Part shown: positions 17,893 to 26,372 of the stretch, in pieces
How positions within the stretch are numbered: the first letter of the stretch is position 1
Layout of the letters: each line of letters starts with the position of its first letter
Source of the DNA: Flavobacterium chungbukense
GTDB lineage: Bacteria > Bacteroidota > Bacteroidia > Flavobacteriales > Flavobacteriaceae
DNA: 64,000 bases
Assembly (NCBI RefSeq): GCF_020805785.1
Contig: NZ_JAJGZV010000002.1
Location: 310,001 to 374,000 of the forward strand
Direction of reading: 5' to 3'
Made by a program: the position numbers and the translations under genes
The notes under the pieces: generated by a model
Told to the model about the DNA's origin: nothing
The model's input: the letters and a program-made list of their open reading frames with translations, nothing else
The model's database searches: none

Positions 17893-19893
17893 CTAAAACT
17901 TCATTTTCTGAATTCGCACCGCATTCAAAATCGCCAACAACGCTACTCCAACATCGGCAAATACAGCTTCCCACATAGTTGCTAGTCCGCCTGCGCCAAG
18001 AATCAGCACAAAAGCTTTTACTAGAAAAGCTAGCGTAATATTTTGCCAAACAATTTTTTTAGTTTGTTTGCCTATATTAATTGCCATTGCAATTTTACTA
18101 GGTTTATCGTCTTGAATGACAACATCGGCAGTTTCTATTGCTGCATCACTTCCTAAACCTCCCATTGCAATTCCGACAGTACTCAAGGCAATTACAGGCG
18201 CGTCGTTTACACCATCACCGACAAAAGCAATGGTTTCGTTTCTGGCCTTAATTTCGTTTACTTTATTGACTTTATCTTCTGGAAGCAAATCTCCAAAAGC
18301 ATTTGCAATTCCGATTTTATCTGCCACAAATTGAACGACGTTGGCTTTATCGCCGCTCAACATCGTTATTTTTACGCCTAAAGATTTTAGTTTTGAAACC
18401 GTTTCTTTAGCATCTTCTTTTATTTGATCTGCAATAGTTAAGTAACCTGCAAATTTGCCTTCGTAAGCAATTGCAATTGTGGTGTAAACTATCGATGCAG
18501 GATCAATATCATACGGAATATTATATTTATCAAGCAATTTAAAATTCCCAACAAATAGTTCTTTTCCGTTAAAAGACGCTTTTAATCCATGTCCAGAAAT
18601 TTCTTCAATATCTTTCAATTCAATTGAAGAATCAATTTGTCCTACATAATTATGAATTGCCGTTGCAACAGGATGTGTGCTTCGGCTTTCTAAAACATTG
18701 ACCAATTTTAGAATTTCTTCTTTATCAAATTCTGGTTTTATAATAACTTCCTGCACTTTAAAAACACCTTCAGTCATCGTTCCAGTTTTGTCTACCACAA
18801 CATTCTGAATGGTCGAAATTCTGTCTAGAAAATTACTGCCTTTAAATAGAATTCCGTTTTTGCTAGCTGCTCCAATTCCGCCAAAATAACCTAACGGAAT
18901 ACTGATAACCAATGCACAAGGACAAGAAATAACCAAGAAAACCAACGCTCTATACAACCAATCACTAAAAACATAATGGTCTACAAAAAGCATCGGAATC
19001 AAACAAATTGCGATTGCAAGATAAACCACAATTGGTGTGTAAATTTTAGCAAATTTTCTAATGAATAATTCAGCTGGAGCTTTTTTAGTAGTTGCATTTT
19101 GAACTAATTCCAGAATTTTAGACAACTTACTATCGTTATAAGCGGTTGTTACTTTTACTTCGGCAATAGTATTGCCGTTGATCATTCCTGCGAGAACAGT
19201 TTCTCCTTTCTTTTTGGTATCGGGTTTACTTTCTCCTGTTAGTGCCGCAGTATTAAAAGAAGCCGAATCTGATAATAATTCTCCATCCAAACCTAATTTT
19301 TCTCCCGCTTTAAGCTGAATAATCGCTCCAATCTGGACATCTTTGGCTTTCATTTTTGTAGCGACATTATTTTCAAGAACATTCACTTCGTCTGGACGCT
19401 GATCTAAAAGGCTTTTAATACTTGATTTTGCTCTTTTAACCGCCATTCCCTGAAAGGTTTCTCCAATAGTATAAAAAAGCATTACGGCAACGCCTTCTGG
19501 ATATTCGCCAATAGCAAATGCACCAATTGTAGCAATACACATTAGGAAAAATTCGGAGAAAACATCTCCTTTTATAATGCTTTCGTAGGCTTCTCTCAAA
19601 ACTGGAAATCCAACTGGAAGATAAGCAATCACGTACCACGCAATTCTAACATATCCAGTAAACCAGTTTTGAGGAAAGTAATGATCCAAACCAATTCCGA
19701 TTAGCAGTAAAATAAAGGAAATAATTGATGGCAGAAACAACTCAAATAAACTGCCTTGCGCATTATGTTCATGATCGTGATCTCCGTGATCGTGTCCGTC
19801 ATCATTCGAATGTACTGGTTCTTCATGTGAACAGCAACAAGATGGTTTGGCTTTATTTTTTGTGTTTTTTACTTCTATATCTTGATGTATCAT
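17893..19893 (-). CDS. Heavy-metal P-type ATPase (P1B-2, Zn/Cd/Pb exporter type)
   Basis: A 666-residue inner-membrane ATPase. The N-terminus has CCCSHEEP and a His/Asp-rich run (GHDHGDHDHEHN) in place of an HMA domain. Core motifs are TGES (actuator), CPCALVIS (transport site), DKTGT (phosphorylated Asp), HP in STHPVA, and GDGVNDAP. The last membrane region carries NITLAFLVK and then MWEAVFADVG, with the Lys and Asp typical of Zn2+/Cd2+ P1B-2 pumps. It exports divalent metal to the periplasm, where the CzcCBA system encoded upstream would expel it. It is the last gene of the minus-strand metal locus, separated from czcB by repeats. Confidence 0.93.
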   Translation of the reverse strand: MIHQDIEVKNTKNKAKPSCCCSHEEPVHSNDDGHDHGDHDHEHNAQGSLFELFLPSIISFILLLIGIGLDHYFPQNWFTGYVRIAWYVIAYLPVGFPVLREAYESIIKGDVFSEFFLMCIATIGAFAIGEYPEGVAVMLFYTIGETFQGMAVKRAKSSIKSLLDQRPDEVNVLENNVATKMKAKDVQIGAIIQLKAGEKLGLDGELLSDSASFNTAALTGESKPDTKKKGETVLAGMINGNTIAEVKVTTAYNDSKLSKILELVQNATTKKAPAELFIRKFAKIYTPIVVYLAIAICLIPMLFVDHYVFSDWLYRALVFLVISCPCALVISIPLGYFGGIGAASKNGILFKGSNFLDRISTIQNVVVDKTGTMTEGVFKVQEVIIKPEFDKEEILKLVNVLESRSTHPVATAIHNYVGQIDSSIELKDIEEISGHGLKASFNGKELFVGNFKLLDKYNIPYDIDPASIVYTTIAIAYEGKFAGYLTIADQIKEDAKETVSKLKSLGVKITMLSGDKANVVQFVADKIGIANAFGDLLPEDKVNKVNEIKARNETIAFVGDGVNDAPVIALSTVGIAMGGLGSDAAIETADVVIQDDKPSKIAMAINIGKQTKKIVWQNITLAFLVKAFVLILGAGGLATMWEAVFADVGVALLAILNAVRIQKMKF

Positions 19894-20182: not shown

Positions 20183-21442
20183 TCAATGCTCATGCTCTCC
20201 TCCGCCCTTCATTGCAGATAGCAGATAAAAAGCCCCTTTTGTAACGATTTTTGCCTGAGAATCTATCTTATCTACAAATTTTATCTCGGTAAAACCTAAA
20301 TCTGTTGTACCTGGAACTACTTCTATGGCTTTAAAATGGACTTCTTTTTCATGAACTTCCTCTTTTTCCCCTGCTTTATGATCTTTTTCTGCTTTCTCTT
20401 CTTCTTGAACAAAAACAAAATACTTATCTGCGTTTCGAACTACGGCATCTTTAGGAAGTGCAGGAACTGTGGCATTGGTAATGTTTATATTAGCAGATAC
20501 ATACATTCCTGAAATCAATCCTTTTGCGTCTGCAGGATCAATTTTAGCGTGAACAGCAACCGTTTTACTTTCATTTGAAAATGATTTATTGATTCCGAAA
20601 ATCTTTCCTTTAATAGATTTATTGGACTGATTGGTCAATACAAAATCAATTACCTGCCCAATCGAAATAGAACCTAAATCTTTCTCATAAACATTCAAAT
20701 CCAAATGCATCTGACTGTTATCTACCACTTCAAACAAAGAAACTCCCGTATTTGCAAAAGCGCCTTTAGCAATATTTATTTTCCCTACATAACCATTTAT
20801 AGGCGATACAATCGGCACAAGTGAGGAACTTCCTTTAGTAGAAACATGCAAGGCATCCAATTTGTTTTTTGCGGCTTGTGCGCGGGCTCTTTCAGCTGCC
20901 AACTTGGCTTTTACTTCCTGAAATGTCTTTCTCGGATTTACATTTTCATCACTTAATGTTTTCTGGCGATTGTATTCTAACTGTAAATATTCAATATTGG
21001 CAGTTGCCGAATGATATTCTTCCTGCATTTCAATCACTTCTAGATTCTGAATTGTTGCCAGCACTTTTCCTTTGTTGACAAATGTTCCTTCCAAAACATA
21101 AATATCTTTTACAGTTCCGCCAATTAAAGTCGAAACTTCAGCCGAATTTTGAGGAGGAACCGTAGTGTAACCATTGGCTTTGATGACTTTATTCAAATTT
21201 CGGTCTTCCACAAATCCAGTTTCAATACCAACTGTTTTATATTGAGATTCCGTTAGAGCAACTTCTGTATTCGGCTTTTCTTCTTCTTGAGTTTCTTCTG
21301 CTTTCTTTTCATTGCATGCGCTTAAGTTAACCGCAAGGCACGCAAAGACAAAGCGCAAGGCACGCAAGGAAATTAAACTTTGCGAACTTTGCGTTACAAT
21401 CTTTGCGCTCTTTGCGGTTAAATAATTCTGTATATTTTTCAT
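20183..21442 (-). CDS. RND efflux periplasmic adaptor (CzcB/CusB family) with a repeat-derived signal peptide
   Basis: A 419-residue membrane-fusion lipoprotein. The mature part has the usual adaptor order: a barrel-sandwich half (about 90-130, VSTLIGGTVKDIYVLEGTFV), an alpha-hairpin (about 130-200), the second lipoyl half (SPINGYVGKINIAKGAF), a beta-barrel and a membrane-proximal domain. A His/Glu-rich insert (about 350-370) and a C-terminal GGGEHEH may bind metal. It bridges CzcA and CzcC. Residues 8-39 are encoded by a palindromic CGCAAAG element (21327-21421). This makes up nearly the whole signal peptide, including the hydrophobic core FVFACLAV, and Cys43 of the lipobox LSAC follows directly. 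The gene starts 2 bases after czcC. Confidence 0.92.
   Translation of the reverse strand: MKNIQNYLTAKSAKIVTQSSQSLISLRALRFVFACLAVNLSACNEKKAEETQEEEKPNTEVALTESQYKTVGIETGFVEDRNLNKVIKANGYTTVPPQNSAEVSTLIGGTVKDIYVLEGTFVNKGKVLATIQNLEVIEMQEEYHSATANIEYLQLEYNRQKTLSDENVNPRKTFQEVKAKLAAERARAQAAKNKLDALHVSTKGSSSLVPIVSPINGYVGKINIAKGAFANTGVSLFEVVDNSQMHLDLNVYEKDLGSISIGQVIDFVLTNQSNKSIKGKIFGINKSFSNESKTVAVHAKIDPADAKGLISGMYVSANINITNATVPALPKDAVVRNADKYFVFVQEEEKAEKDHKAGEKEEVHEKEVHFKAIEVVPGTTDLGFTEIKFVDKIDSQAKIVTKGAFYLLSAMKGGGEHEH
21327..21421. repeat. CGCAAAG palindromic element inside the czcB coding sequence
   Basis: The element starts TTAACCGCAAGG and ends CTTTGCGGTTAA. Internal GCAAAG/CTTTGC motifs are arranged as an imperfect palindrome of 95 bases. 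It lies wholly inside the reading frame of the adaptor protein (codons 8-39). The right border, positions 21401-21427, is identical to 42652-42678 at the DUF72 gene. Confidence 0.85.
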
Positions 21443-21444
21443 GA

Positions 21445-22683
21445 TTAATTGCTTTTGATGGTTGGAAATTGGAGTTCGATAGCACTTTGATTAAAACTAT
21501 GTGTAGCTTCGGCAAGTTGTTTTTTAATATCAATTGCCTGATTTAAAAAACTGATATACGACCAATAACTCAAATCGCCATTGGCATAACTTTTCTGCGC
21601 TGTTTCAATAATCTGATTTGCATATTGTAAACCTTCGTTTTGATAATAATTCAGATTTTTTTGCTGTTTTAGAAAATTATTCTGCAACTCTTCTTTTTGA
21701 AGATTTAAAATGATTTTGTTTTTATCCAATGCCAATTGCGATTGCGAAATACTAATCTCTGCCGCCTTCGCTTTTGTTGTATTTACGCTTCCAAATAACG
21801 GAATTTGTATTCCAGCAGTAAATCCTTGAAATAATGATTGGGTATTTATGGTTTGGGCAAAATAGCCTAAACCCAATTTTGGAGTACGATTTGCCTTAAA
21901 CGTTCCCACTTCTTTTTGATAAACCGAAATTTGCTGCTGATAAAAATCGGTTACTAATTCCTCCACTTTTGAATTCTGATTTTCTGTGAATGTAAATTTG
22001 AGCGAAGTTGCTTCATCTGGAATAATATTTTCATCGGTCTGAACAAAAAACTGAAGCTGTTTTTGGTAAATAGCCAAATCGTAACGCAATTGTTCTTTTT
22101 GCGTTTCGATCTCTTTTACTTTGGCTTTTGCACTGATAACTTCGATATTGCCACTTTCCCCAGTTTTAAAACGCAGCTCAGCATTCTTAAGGAATTTAGT
22201 ATAAATCTCATTTAATTCTGAGTTTAACTTTTGAATTGAAATTCCGTATAAATATTGATAATAAGCCAAAGTCACAGCTTTTTCTAACTCGTAAGAAGAT
22301 AAAGCTTTTCGTTTTTCAGCCAGTTTTGTCAACTCTTCTTGTAATTGTCTATTGGCTTTGGTGACATTTCCTAAAGGGAAAAACTGCTGTATGGAAACAT
22401 TATGGTCAAAATCGGCACTATTGAACTGTCCACCTTGGTACTGCACTTGCAAAGGATCGGGCTGAAAAGCTGTTTTCTTTAAAACGGTTTGGCGTTCTAT
22501 TTCTTTATCGGCTATTTTTAAGTCGATGTTGTTTGATTTGGCAAGTTCGATGGCTTTTTCAAGACTTATAGATTGTTGTGCTGAAATAGCAGTACTTACC
22601 AATAGGAATATGCTTAACTGCAATCCCGATAGCCATTGGGAGCAAAGCTTTTTCAATTCGATTTTATATGTTGAATTCTTCAT
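21445..22683 (-). CDS. TolC-family outer-membrane efflux protein (CzcC/CusC type)
   Basis: A 412-residue protein with a long N-terminal signal peptide ending near AISAQQ (about residue 36). Two repeated outer-membrane-efflux (OEP) modules follow, with long coiled-coil helices, such as SLEKAIELAKSNNIDLK at the start and ISISQSQLALDKNKI in the second half. It forms the outer-membrane channel of the tripartite metal pump with the adjacent adaptor and RND genes. The gene order czcA-czcC-czcB on the minus strand and the 2-base gap to czcB indicate one operon. Confidence 0.9.
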   Translation of the reverse strand: MKNSTYKIELKKLCSQWLSGLQLSIFLLVSTAISAQQSISLEKAIELAKSNNIDLKIADKEIERQTVLKKTAFQPDPLQVQYQGGQFNSADFDHNVSIQQFFPLGNVTKANRQLQEELTKLAEKRKALSSYELEKAVTLAYYQYLYGISIQKLNSELNEIYTKFLKNAELRFKTGESGNIEVISAKAKVKEIETQKEQLRYDLAIYQKQLQFFVQTDENIIPDEATSLKFTFTENQNSKVEELVTDFYQQQISVYQKEVGTFKANRTPKLGLGYFAQTINTQSLFQGFTAGIQIPLFGSVNTTKAKAAEISISQSQLALDKNKIILNLQKEELQNNFLKQQKNLNYYQNEGLQYANQIIETAQKSYANGDLSYWSYISFLNQAIDIKKQLAEATHSFNQSAIELQFPTIKSN

Positions 22684-22788: not shown

Positions 22789-25700
22789 CTAATTGTCAGA
22801 TTTTTTAATTATCTCATTTCTAATAAACTTCTCCAGCATTAAATACAAAATCGGCAAAACGATTAAGGTTAATAAAGTTGCAGAGAGTAAACCGCCGATA
22901 ACTACAGTTGCTAAAGGTTTCTGTACTTCTGCCCCTCCGCTTGTTGACAATGCCATTGGCAAAAATCCTAACGAAGCAACTGCCGCGGTCATTAAAACGG
23001 GACGTAAACGTGTTTTGGTTCCGATTATAACTCTTTGAAGCGGATCTAAAATTCCTTCTGTTTTTAATTGGTTGAAATACGAAATCAGTACAATTCCGTT
23101 GAGAACGGCAATTCCGAACAAGGCAATAAATCCAATTCCGGCAGAAATACTAAACGGCATTCCTCTTAGCGAAAGTGCAAAAACTCCTCCTATTGCGGAT
23201 AAAGGAATGGCAGTAAAAATCAATAAAGCTTGTTTTACACTCTTAAAAGTAAAATACAACAAGATCAAAATTAATCCTAAAGCAATTGGTAATGCCAAAG
23301 AAAGTCTTTTTGATGCTTCGATTAAATTTTCAAACTGACCTCCATAAGTCACATAATAACCTGCGGGAAGTTTAAAATTTTTGTCCAGTTTTTGCTGAAT
23401 TTCTTCTACAACCGTTTTAATATCGCGCCCGCGTACGTTTAAACCAACAGTAATTCTTCTTTTTCCATTTTCGCGAACCACCTGAACAGGACCTTGCTCA
23501 TAATCGACCGTGGCAACTTGCGAAAGCGGTACCTGCTGGCCATTAGGAAGTGGAATAAACAAATTACTCACATCGGTAATATCAGCACGATTGTTTTCAT
23601 CCATTCGAACGACAACATCAAAACGTTTGCTTTCATCATAGATTTTTCCAGCACTTTCACCTGCAAATGAAGATCGTATAATCTGATTGATGTCAGATAT
23701 ATTCAATCCGTATAACGCAATTTTATTATAATCGTATTTAACAGTAATTTGAGGAAGTCCTGTTACTTTATCGGCTTTTAAATCTCCGATTCCTTCAATG
23801 TTTTTTATTTTCGAAATTAATTCTGAGGCTTTTGAATCCAATATTTCTAAATCATCACCAAAAATTTTGATGGCAATATCAGAACGGCTTCCTGTCATTA
23901 ATTCGTTAAAACGCATTTGAATCGGCTGAGAAATCTCTATTGTAGCACCTGGAATTACTTCCATTTCCTCTTTCATCGCATTGGCTAATTCTTCCCAATT
24001 ATGATATTTGCCTTTCCATTCTTTTTTATCTTTTAAAACGATAATCAAATCTCCACTTTCAATTGGCATTGGATCTGTCGGAATTTCACCGCTTCCAATT
24101 TTGGTTACAATAGTCTTGATTTCAGGAAATTTAGCTTTCAGAATCTGCTCGTATTTTGTAGTCGTTTCTACCATCTGCGTAAGCGAACTTCCTGTCATAA
24201 TGGTCGCATTTATAGCCAAATCTCCTTCTGCAATAGTCGGGATAAATTCTCCTCCCATATTTTGAAAAATAATTAAGGCTAATGCAAATAAACCGAATGC
24301 AATTCCTAAAACTGCTTTTTTAAATTGGAGTGCTTTATTTAAAAATGGCGTATATCTATTTTGAAACCAAAGCATCATTCTATCACTGAAATTTTCTTTG
24401 TGTTTTGTTTTCTTTGAAAGAACTAATGCGCTTATCATTGGCACATAAGTCAACGAAAGTATAAACGCTCCAATTACTGCAAAACCAACTGTCATTGCCA
24501 TTGGTTTAAACATTTTTCCTTCAGTACCAATTAATGCTAAAATGGGAAGATAAACGATAAGAATGATGATTTCTCCGAAAGCGGCGCTGTTTCTAATTTT
24601 TGAAGCCGAATTGTAGATTTCGGCATCCATTTCTTCTTGGGAAAGATTTTCGTTCCGTTTAAGTTTCTGTAAATGATGCATGGAAGCTTCGACTATAATA
24701 ACAGCTCCGTCGACAATGATTCCGAAATCTATTGCACCTAAACTCATTAAATTTCCGCTAACGCCAAAAGCATTCATCAAAATAACAGCAAATAACATCG
24801 CTAACGGAATTACTGAAGCTACAATTAATCCGGCGCGAAGATTTCCGAGAAATAAAATCAGAACTAAGATTACTATAAAAGCACCTTCCAATAAATTTTT
24901 AGTAACCGTTCCTATAGCATTATCGACCAACTTTCCGCGATCAATGAAAGCCTCAGCAACAACGCCTTCAGGCAGACTTTTATTAATCTGCTCCATTCTT
25001 TCTTTTACTCTTTTAACTACTGCGCTTGAGTTTTCACCTTTCAGCATCAAAACCATTCCTGATACGATTTCTCCTTTTCCGTCTTTGGTTGAAGCGCCGT
25101 AACGCAGCGCAATACCTTCACGAACCTTAGCTACATCACGCACAAGAACTGGAGAACCATTTCTGTTCTTTACTACTACATCACCTAGATCTCTTACTCC
25201 TTTTGCCATTCCGACACCGCGAATGAAATAAGCATATTGATCTTTCTCTATGTAGGCACCTCCTGTATTTTGATTGTTCTTTTCTAAAGCATCAAAAATT
25301 TCGGTGATAGTTACGCCTAAACTATTTAGTGTATTTGGGTTAACAGCTATTTCATATTGTTTTAATTTTCCGCCCCAAGTGCTTACTTCTGCGACTCCCC
25401 TAACTCCCTGTAATTGCGGAATAATAATCCAATCCTGAATGGTTCTTAATTGTATTGCATCATACTTTTTTTCGTAACCTTTTTTGGCATAAACATCATA
25501 TTGATAAATTTCGCCTAAACCTGTGGTTATTGGCGCTAATTCTGGTGTTCCTGCATAAGGCGGAATATTCTCTTCGGCTTGTTTTAAGCGTTGAAATATT
25601 TGTTCGCGAGCCCAATAAATATCAACATCATCTTCAAAAACAACGGTTACGACAGATAATCCGAAACGGGAAATACTTCGAAGTTCTATAATATCTGGAA

Positions 25701-25926
25701 CTGTTTTTACAGCTTGTTCAAGAGGATACGTTATCAATTGTTCTACTTCCTGACTTGCCAAGGTCGGTGCAGTGGTAATAATCTGAACCTGATTGTTAGT
25801 TACATCTGGAAGCGCATCTAACGGTAGTTTTTTAAGCGAATAGCTTCCCCACGCTATCAAAACGAGGGTAAATAATAGTATGACGAATTTGTTCCGTATA
25901 CTAAACTGAATAATTTTATCTAGCAT
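22789..25926 (-). CDS. Heavy-metal efflux RND pump (CzcA/CusA family)
   Basis: A 1045-residue inner-membrane proton/metal antiporter. I chose ATG 25926 (MLDKIIQFSIRNKFV), the usual HME-RND start, instead of an upstream in-frame ATG that adds 11 residues. There are 12 transmembrane segments in two halves, with two large periplasmic loops. The opening PLDALPDVTNNQVQI and the TM4 motif DFGIIVDGAVIIVE are typical of heavy-metal RND proteins (proton-relay Asp and Glu). It drives export of divalent cations from the periplasm together with CzcB and CzcC. The choice among Co/Zn/Cd, Ni and Cu/Ag cannot be made by eye, but the neighbouring Zn/Cd-type ATPase favours Zn/Cd/Co. Confidence 0.94.
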   Translation of the reverse strand: MLDKIIQFSIRNKFVILLFTLVLIAWGSYSLKKLPLDALPDVTNNQVQIITTAPTLASQEVEQLITYPLEQAVKTVPDIIELRSISRFGLSVVTVVFEDDVDIYWAREQIFQRLKQAEENIPPYAGTPELAPITTGLGEIYQYDVYAKKGYEKKYDAIQLRTIQDWIIIPQLQGVRGVAEVSTWGGKLKQYEIAVNPNTLNSLGVTITEIFDALEKNNQNTGGAYIEKDQYAYFIRGVGMAKGVRDLGDVVVKNRNGSPVLVRDVAKVREGIALRYGASTKDGKGEIVSGMVLMLKGENSSAVVKRVKERMEQINKSLPEGVVAEAFIDRGKLVDNAIGTVTKNLLEGAFIVILVLILFLGNLRAGLIVASVIPLAMLFAVILMNAFGVSGNLMSLGAIDFGIIVDGAVIIVEASMHHLQKLKRNENLSQEEMDAEIYNSASKIRNSAAFGEIIILIVYLPILALIGTEGKMFKPMAMTVGFAVIGAFILSLTYVPMISALVLSKKTKHKENFSDRMMLWFQNRYTPFLNKALQFKKAVLGIAFGLFALALIIFQNMGGEFIPTIAEGDLAINATIMTGSSLTQMVETTTKYEQILKAKFPEIKTIVTKIGSGEIPTDPMPIESGDLIIVLKDKKEWKGKYHNWEELANAMKEEMEVIPGATIEISQPIQMRFNELMTGSRSDIAIKIFGDDLEILDSKASELISKIKNIEGIGDLKADKVTGLPQITVKYDYNKIALYGLNISDINQIIRSSFAGESAGKIYDESKRFDVVVRMDENNRADITDVSNLFIPLPNGQQVPLSQVATVDYEQGPVQVVRENGKRRITVGLNVRGRDIKTVVEEIQQKLDKNFKLPAGYYVTYGGQFENLIEASKRLSLALPIALGLILILLYFTFKSVKQALLIFTAIPLSAIGGVFALSLRGMPFSISAGIGFIALFGIAVLNGIVLISYFNQLKTEGILDPLQRVIIGTKTRLRPVLMTAAVASLGFLPMALSTSGGAEVQKPLATVVIGGLLSATLLTLIVLPILYLMLEKFIRNEIIKKSDN

Positions 25927-26048
25927 TTGAGATATATAATGACATGAGAAATGAGACAATTTCTTGTCTATCTAAGTTTTGTGGAAAATCCACCCTTCTC
26001 TAATCCAAATTGTGATCCTGATAAACTATCGGGACAAAAAGGATTTCA

Positions 26049-26372
26049 TTATACTAACTGAGGCGGCTGCCAAATACTTCCGAAGAAATTGGAAGCAAAA
26101 ACGGAATTATAACTTGGTAATGCTATTGAAATAAGATCGCAAACCTTTGGAAATTCAAAAATTATCGGAGTTTGATAACTTAAAATTTGAACACTGCAAC
26201 AATTACAAGTGCAGAAAGGAGAACATAAATCATTGTCTTTATCGTGTGAGTGGTTCTCTTCTGAAGAAAACTGAGCCGTTTTATGCATAGCGCTATTGAC
26301 TTCCATATCTGCGCAAGGCATATTTGAAAGTGCCATCAAATAAATTGACATTATAATTGCTATCCATTTCAT
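26049..26372 (-). CDS. Small Cys/His-rich exported protein, first gene of the metal efflux locus
   Basis: A 107-residue protein with an N-terminal hydrophobic signal (WIAIIMSIYLMALSNMPC). It then has a His/Asp-rich stretch (ENHSHDKDNDLC) and a Cys cluster CSPFCTCNCC near residues 51-60. The C-terminal half is uncharged. Similar small proteins stand before czc/cus operons in Bacteroidota (DUF6660 by my recollection). The Cys/His cluster suggests periplasmic metal sensing or binding. It is transcribed toward czcA, 122 bases away. Confidence 0.75.
   Translation of the reverse strand: MKWIAIIMSIYLMALSNMPCADMEVNSAMHKTAQFSSEENHSHDKDNDLCSPFCTCNCCSVQILSYQTPIIFEFPKVCDLISIALPSYNSVFASNFFGSIWQPPQLV

Follow-up and report, generated by a model that had tools for sequence, protein, structure and literature searches.

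A dispersed palindromic repeat as the probable source of the export signal of a czcB-type efflux lipoprotein in Flavobacterium

Introduction

A bacterial precedent for the arrangement described here is the RU-2/YPAL element in the Yersinia gene YPO1552 (Delihas 2007, PMC2759123; reviewed in PMC2229807), a gene for a putative exported protein of 144 residues; outside Yersinia, related proteins carry signals that bear no relation to the repeat. Rickettsia palindromic elements (RPEs; Ogata 2000), by their description palindromic repeats of ~100–150 bp lying in frame within genes for conserved proteins, have been reported in 19 reading frames (PMC2229807). Repetitive extragenic palindromic (REP) sequences and their REP-associated tyrosine transposases (RAYTs) are described (PMC3733652, PMC6006769) as a system of many, mostly intergenic palindromic copies of 20–40 bp. 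Here we analyse a 64,000-nt stretch of the Flavobacterium chungbukense genome (contig NZ_JAJGZV010000002.1, positions 310,001 to 374,000; referred to here as 'the window'), in which a 95-bp palindromic repeat of a family marked by the motif CGCAAAG lies in the signal-peptide region of a gene for a predicted lipoprotein, the czcB-type periplasmic adaptor of a resistance-nodulation-division (RND) efflux pump (here 'czcB'). An earlier note on the window had proposed that this repeat was adopted as an export signal, and our results support that proposal: neither repeat-free orthologues sharing the repeat-encoded residues nor a frame starting downstream of the repeat was found.

The czcB repeat is a stronger variant of the Yersinia-type precedent, with good comparative evidence: the likeness to YPO1552 lies in relatives whose signals are unrelated to the repeat, whereas here the host gene codes for an efflux adaptor that is conserved, 73 distinct loci are involved, and both orientations, nested repeats and tandem copies occur. 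What is new is that the repeat is found in both orientations (38 forward, 13 reverse), with its types scattered over the tree. The earlier note's comparison with RPEs is apt. The repeat here is palindromic, has copies at many sites of its genome and sits in frame in a conserved gene whose orthologues outside one clade lack it; the Flavobacterium copies differ in being mostly intergenic, the clear coding cases being the signal peptides of czcB and tolC. Like REP sequences, the family has many palindromic, mostly intergenic copies, but its unit is ~95 bp and there is no CGCAAAG in the ~1.5-kb flanks of the six Y1_Tnp genes of this genome. A literature search whose reach excluded most subscription journals returned no case from Flavobacterium or the Bacteroidetes and no link between palindromes and signal peptides, in agreement with the earlier note, which knew of none in Flavobacterium.

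Results

The repeat lies in frame in czcB and marks one clade

By coordinates, the repeat covers czcB codons 8–38 and two bases of codon 39 (Table 1), and the earlier description of a 95-bp palindrome encoding codons 8–39 was borne out by the open reading frame (ORF), the coordinates and the two inverted arms, which are 22 nt each and 86% complementary. As RNA, the 95 nt fold at -42.9 kcal/mol (0 of 200 shuffles as low), and, with ≤2 mismatches allowed, the window contains 14 occurrences of CGCAAAGNNCGCAAAG (4 within the element) against 0.36 expected. The frame is open from the ATG beside the tolC stop, through the repeat, to the lipobox Cys43, which lies just after the repeat, where the note had placed it.

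We collected 110 loci (the best 30 of one search plus the best 80 of 158 relatives, from collections holding one genome per species), of which 92 were distinct after removal of 18 exact duplicates. The repeat or a derivative was present in the czcB signal peptide of 73 of these 92 orthologous loci, which we refer to here as type A (38 loci, the window's orientation), type C (13, opposite orientation), type B (15, the left half of the repeat joined to another stretch, AYSLLLIAYSG), type D (3, a longer form) and 'decayed' (4); types were assigned by rules of our own and partly by eye, the C list being drawn from alignment scores and L030, L055 and L060 being changed by hand from none to A. In the remaining 19 loci (16 outgroup rows plus L098, L102 and L104, which form the sister group to the repeat clade) the signal peptides are short, of an ordinary kind and unrelated to the repeat (e.g. 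MKNINSKFKIFLILNTLFLLLLTSC), and none of these loci shares residues 8–39 of the window protein. On a tree built from 900 nt of tolC and the mature part of czcB (2037 columns, IQ-TREE), presence versus absence of the repeat is a single change (support 100/99).

Two side observations concern these loci. L035 and L115, both without the repeat, differ by 38% in the czcB signal peptide and by 11% in the flanks, so the signal region may be changing fast even where no repeat is present. In L021 and its duplicate L046 (F. hungaricum) the signal-peptide unit is a tandem triplicate in which every copy has a lipobox-like Cys; because of this triplication, L021 was excluded from the distance, flip and hairpin tables.

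The reading frame is open in all repeat-bearing loci

No stop codon interrupts the frame between the ATG and the Cys in any of the 73 repeat rows. In 71 of them the ATG follows the tolC stop by 1–2 nt (the other two being at -1 and +4), compared with 8–11 nt in 18 of the 19 repeat-free rows (-1 in one). For comparison we used 70 copies elsewhere (≥89 aligned query bases, hand-picked among the matches listed plus the window's own genome, czcB copies excluded). An open frame with the correct exit frame was found in 27/27 type A and, read in their own direction, 12/12 type C copies, vs. 11/63 (forward) and 1/59 (reverse) of the copies elsewhere read in the czcB frame, this control excluding copies without recognisable ends (1/28 A and 1/13 C; elsewhere, 7/70 forward and 11/70 reverse).

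The encoded peptides resemble ordinary lipoprotein signals

We judged signals by hydropathy, charge and lipobox pattern alone, with thresholds of our own. The window protein has a basic n-region (net charge +2), a hydrophobic core (Kyte-Doolittle 2.27) and a lipobox Cys (L-S-A-C). The czcB repeat peptides are close to ordinary ones in hydropathy and charge; the median hydropathy of the best 11-residue stretch was 2.73 in A, 2.45 in B, 3.06 in C, 2.75 in D and 2.61 in decayed rows, and 2.83 in the 19 repeat-free rows. The core lipobox [LIVMF]x[AGS]C was present in 36/38 A, 15/15 B, 7/13 C, 3/3 D and 4/4 decayed rows, and in 16/19 rows without the repeat.

The bias towards a signal-like peptide is also seen in the 70 copies elsewhere: the right half was more hydrophobic than the left in 412/420 frames, the average charge was +2.4 to +5.4 for left and +1.0 to +2.6 for right halves, and 56/420 frames were signal-like vs. 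13.5 ± 3.9 in shuffles. Codons for hydrophilic residues generally have complements that specify hydrophobic ones. In this family, CGCAAAG in one arm yields Lys, Arg, Ala and Gln, whereas CTTTGCG, its reverse complement, yields Phe, Leu, Ala and Cys, so that basic residues tend to precede hydrophobic ones whichever way round an in-frame copy lies.

Several observations weigh against an adopted export signal. The core lipobox fails in 2/38 A and 6/13 C rows vs. 3/19 repeat-free rows, and the strict PROSITE lipoprotein pattern fails in 4/38 A, 4/15 B and 6/13 C vs. 2/19. Two points qualify the earlier statement that the signal seems intact: the window protein itself, although it has the core lipobox, fails the strict pattern (Asn at -4), and its hydrophobic core is the lowest-scoring of the 38 type A proteins. 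An n-region of ~30 residues is long for a signal peptide. Codon positions bear no signature of purifying selection: diversity at third positions (0.113 in A; 0.076 in C) lies below that at first (0.198; 0.129) and second (0.129; 0.119) positions, with 28 of the 38 A rows entering the repeat comparison and 24 of these the codon-position test. Finally, inverted repeats built from shuffled left arms gave 18.8 ± 4.9 signal-like frames, little above the plain shuffles, which suggests that the CGCAAAG arm sequence, and not palindromy alone, gives the signal-like reading.

The repeat is dispersed in the genome and the genus

The genome-wide search that the earlier note had suggested found the family dispersed: merged searches placed it, whole or in part, at 41 places in its own genome, of which 19 are ≥75 nt long (a 151-nt query gave 41 matches at E ≤0.001 and a 101-nt query gave 71 at E 10, counting the element and both strands). 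Matches occur in at least 111 of 150 genomes of the genus. Full-length copies have terminal inverted repeats (TTAACCGCAAAG...CTTTGCGGTTAA), as expected of miniature inverted-repeat transposable elements; the repeat-free czcB signal peptides are too divergent to align as an empty site for a target-site duplication. A RAYT as the mover was considered and set aside, the ~1.5-kb flanks of the six Y1_Tnp genes containing no CGCAAAG and one CTTTGCG, and the repeat copy nearest to a Y1_Tnp gene lying ~2 kb away by coordinates (C10:620848-620979 and 622961); we propose no mover.

When 54 smaller repeat intervals in this genome were compared with ORFs of ≥90 aa, the majority overlapped none, and the czcB copy was the sole one deep within a long ORF near its start, the remaining overlaps involving ORF ends, short ORFs or positions 5' of the apparent true start. 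Six repeat-overlapping ORFs were read by eye; one (251 aa) apparently starts downstream of its repeat, and the others were judged short or had the repeat at an end. Similarly, 69 of the 70 copies elsewhere overlap no ORF of ≥100 aa by 60 nt. Recurrent insertion into many different genes was not found with three peptide queries against 23 genomes, in which long stop-free frames appeared at czcB and tolC, plus three weak matches; each query covers one reading frame, so that copies in other frames could escape. With the type A peptide, stop-free long frames appeared at czcB only, stops interrupting three other long frames (657, 390 and 164 aa). The type C peptide matched czcB plus the three weak long-frame candidates (E 0.67, 1.6 and 2.6), and the tolC-type peptide gave long-frame matches at presumed tolC genes, identified by position.

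Both orientations and probable turnover of the signal region

Alignment scores identify the type C repeat as the type A repeat reversed, and in four genomes (G041, G048, G078 and G056) the A peptide matched the antisense strand at czcB. When the repeat was reversed in silico (42 of the 51 A and C rows), the frame stayed open in 29/30 A and 12/12 C rows and A-like peptides became C-like and vice versa, with hydropathy falling in most. The types are scattered on the tree (type C, 13 rows and 13 changes; type B, 15 rows and 15 changes), and the row with the nearest signal peptide is also the row with the nearest flank in only 7/72 cases vs. 18–32/72 for four control segments. One pair, L017 and L071, differs by 0.8% in the signal region and by 14% in the flanks. 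From the scatter of types, this discordance and this pair we infer that short tracts have been exchanged between species on top of a few inversions; 120-nt windows beside the signal in nine pairs contained no clear wider exchange tract. Other repeats have also entered the region: an 18-bp palindrome with 35 sites in the window's genome is nested in 11 of the 73 czcB signal regions, read as IAIG in 9, and the IAIG-reading form takes 8 changes on the tree. As a side observation, a third dispersed repeat, AGCTTATAGCTTACTGCTTATAGC-like and present at 11 places in G056, matches part of the type B segment.

Discussion

Alternative explanations

The peptide could be a by-product if the repeat were retained as an RNA or DNA hairpin (e.g. 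for mRNA stability or translation control within the operon). The fold is strong in the window (z -6.3) and reaches z below -3 in 23/37 A, 11/13 C and 2/3 D rows; repeats also lie at the czcA-tolC junction of some species, and third codon positions are conserved rather than free, as a pairing constraint might give. However, no B (0/15), decayed (0/4) or repeat-free (0/19) row folds at z below -3, and the B and decayed rows nonetheless retain an open frame and a hydrophobic core; likewise, copies elsewhere are mostly closed in the czcB frame, while all 73 here are open. An RNA hairpin as the shared function was set aside, since it was not detected in the B and decayed types, which argues that the trait common to all types is the export signal; we regard the hairpin explanation as quite improbable. 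It is very unlikely, in turn, that translation begins at an internal TTG (codon 26 or 29), which would leave the left half untranslated and make the right half alone a short, normal signal peptide. Candidate starts (ATG, GTG or TTG) 14–26 codons before the Cys exist in 36/38 A (one an ATG) and 3/3 D rows (two with ATG), but are missing from 14/15 B, 10/13 C and 3/4 decayed rows, whereas the ATG lying -1 to +4 nt from the tolC stop and its frame are retained in 73/73. Even if translation in the window did begin at an internal TTG, as its sequence allows, the hydrophobic core would still come from the repeat's right half.

The types might also stem from many independent insertions at one site, rather than from one acquisition with later inversion and exchange. 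The scatter of types, with as many changes as rows for both C (13) and B (15), points that way, as does the presence of other repeat families in the signal region. The mean best identity of C copies is just slightly higher with A copies (0.846) than with copies elsewhere (0.824), their nearest non-C relative being an A copy in 9/13 and a copy elsewhere in 4/13; this weak preference slightly lowers our confidence in the explanation preferred below. Against many insertions, repeat presence is one change on the tree, a loop motif is common to A (16/28) and C (6/13; 10/13 with a looser pattern, which leaves A at 16/28) and occurs in 0/70 copies elsewhere, and C copies are nearest to each other (0.927), suggesting few inversions followed by interspecies exchange. 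We consider repeated insertion rather unlikely.

Proposed origin and significance

Replacement of the signal is the preferred explanation: very probably, judging from the comparison of loci, a dispersed palindromic repeat replaced the old czcB export signal in frame, the simplest course being a single event in an ancestor from which one clade of Flavobacterium descends. A CGCAAAG-family repeat would have entered the signal-peptide coding region of that ancestor and taken the place of the previous signal without loss of frame. In the sequence, its left half, with residues near the loop, reads as a basic n-region (K11, K14, R27 and R30), its right half as the hydrophobic core (FVFACLAV) and the flank as the lipobox L-S-A-C43. 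We infer that translation starts at the ATG and that the protein is exported by Sec, lipidated at Cys43 and cleaved by signal peptidase II. The signal would then persist while the region inverts, takes up other repeats or passes between species.

Since the basic codons used here have reverse complements that specify hydrophobic residues, an in-frame copy yields a basic n-region and a hydrophobic core in either orientation. Lysine-coding arms may thus make palindromic repeats ready-made, reversible export-signal cassettes. On this view the czcB signal of the clade has undergone inversion at its site, rebuilding with other repeats and transfer of short tracts from species to species; we offer this broader idea tentatively, at a little under an even chance. 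Orientation switching within one strain is possible. The locus offers a concrete, testable route from dispersed DNA repeats to a working protein signal, and signal peptides are likely sites for it, as charge and hydropathy are what matter in them and this inverted repeat supplies basic and then hydrophobic residues both ways. That the process is seen at two adjacent genes of the same pump operon allows experiments on signal strength, orientation and interspecies exchange.

Genes and further repeats of the pump operon

The pump gene and tolC likely belong to the same operon (Table 1). The adaptor passes general adaptor models, and scores below the narrower CzcB/NccB model (123.2 bits vs. a cut-off of 319.3).

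Table 1. Features of the efflux locus in the window
Feature	Position	Strand	Remarks
95-bp palindromic repeat, forward type, CGCAAAG family	21327..21421	-	inverted repeat; RNA fold z -6.3; 41 family places in genome
Left arm	21400..21421	-	reads LTAKSAK; part of basic n-region
Right arm	21327..21348	-	reads FACLAVN; part of hydrophobic core
Lipobox Cys43 (L-S-A-C)	21314..21316	-	downstream of repeat in czcB frame
czcB-type RND periplasmic adaptor, predicted lipoprotein, 419 aa	20183..21442	-	ORF; TIGR01730 RND_mfp 133.4 bits (cut-off 94.9); Pfam HlyD_D23 99.7 bits (cut-off 30)
tolC-type outer-membrane efflux gene	21445..22683	-	Pfam OEP 90.4 bits; stop 2 nt before czcB ATG
CusA/CzcA-type RND pump, upstream of tolC	22789..25959	-	TIGR00914 1197.9 bits (cut-off 701.45)
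Second palindromic repeat, CCCGATAGCTATCGGG family, 2 mismatches	22625..22640	+	inside tolC signal-peptide region

In 69 of the 73 repeat rows, regular expressions of our own place an in-frame CTTTGCG arm or CCCGATAGCTATCGGG palindrome within the tolC signal peptide; where the czcB repeat is absent, those tolC N-termini that are visible are short and unremarkable. In L022, L012 and L018 a repeat seems, by eye, to span the czcA-tolC junction, with the left arm at or after the end of czcA, the tolC ATG in the loop and the right arm in the tolC signal peptide. Beside the efflux genes lie a P-type ATPase that passes a cadmium-family model (17893-19893, - strand) and a small His/Cys-rich ORF (26049-26372, - strand) with no NCBIfam match.
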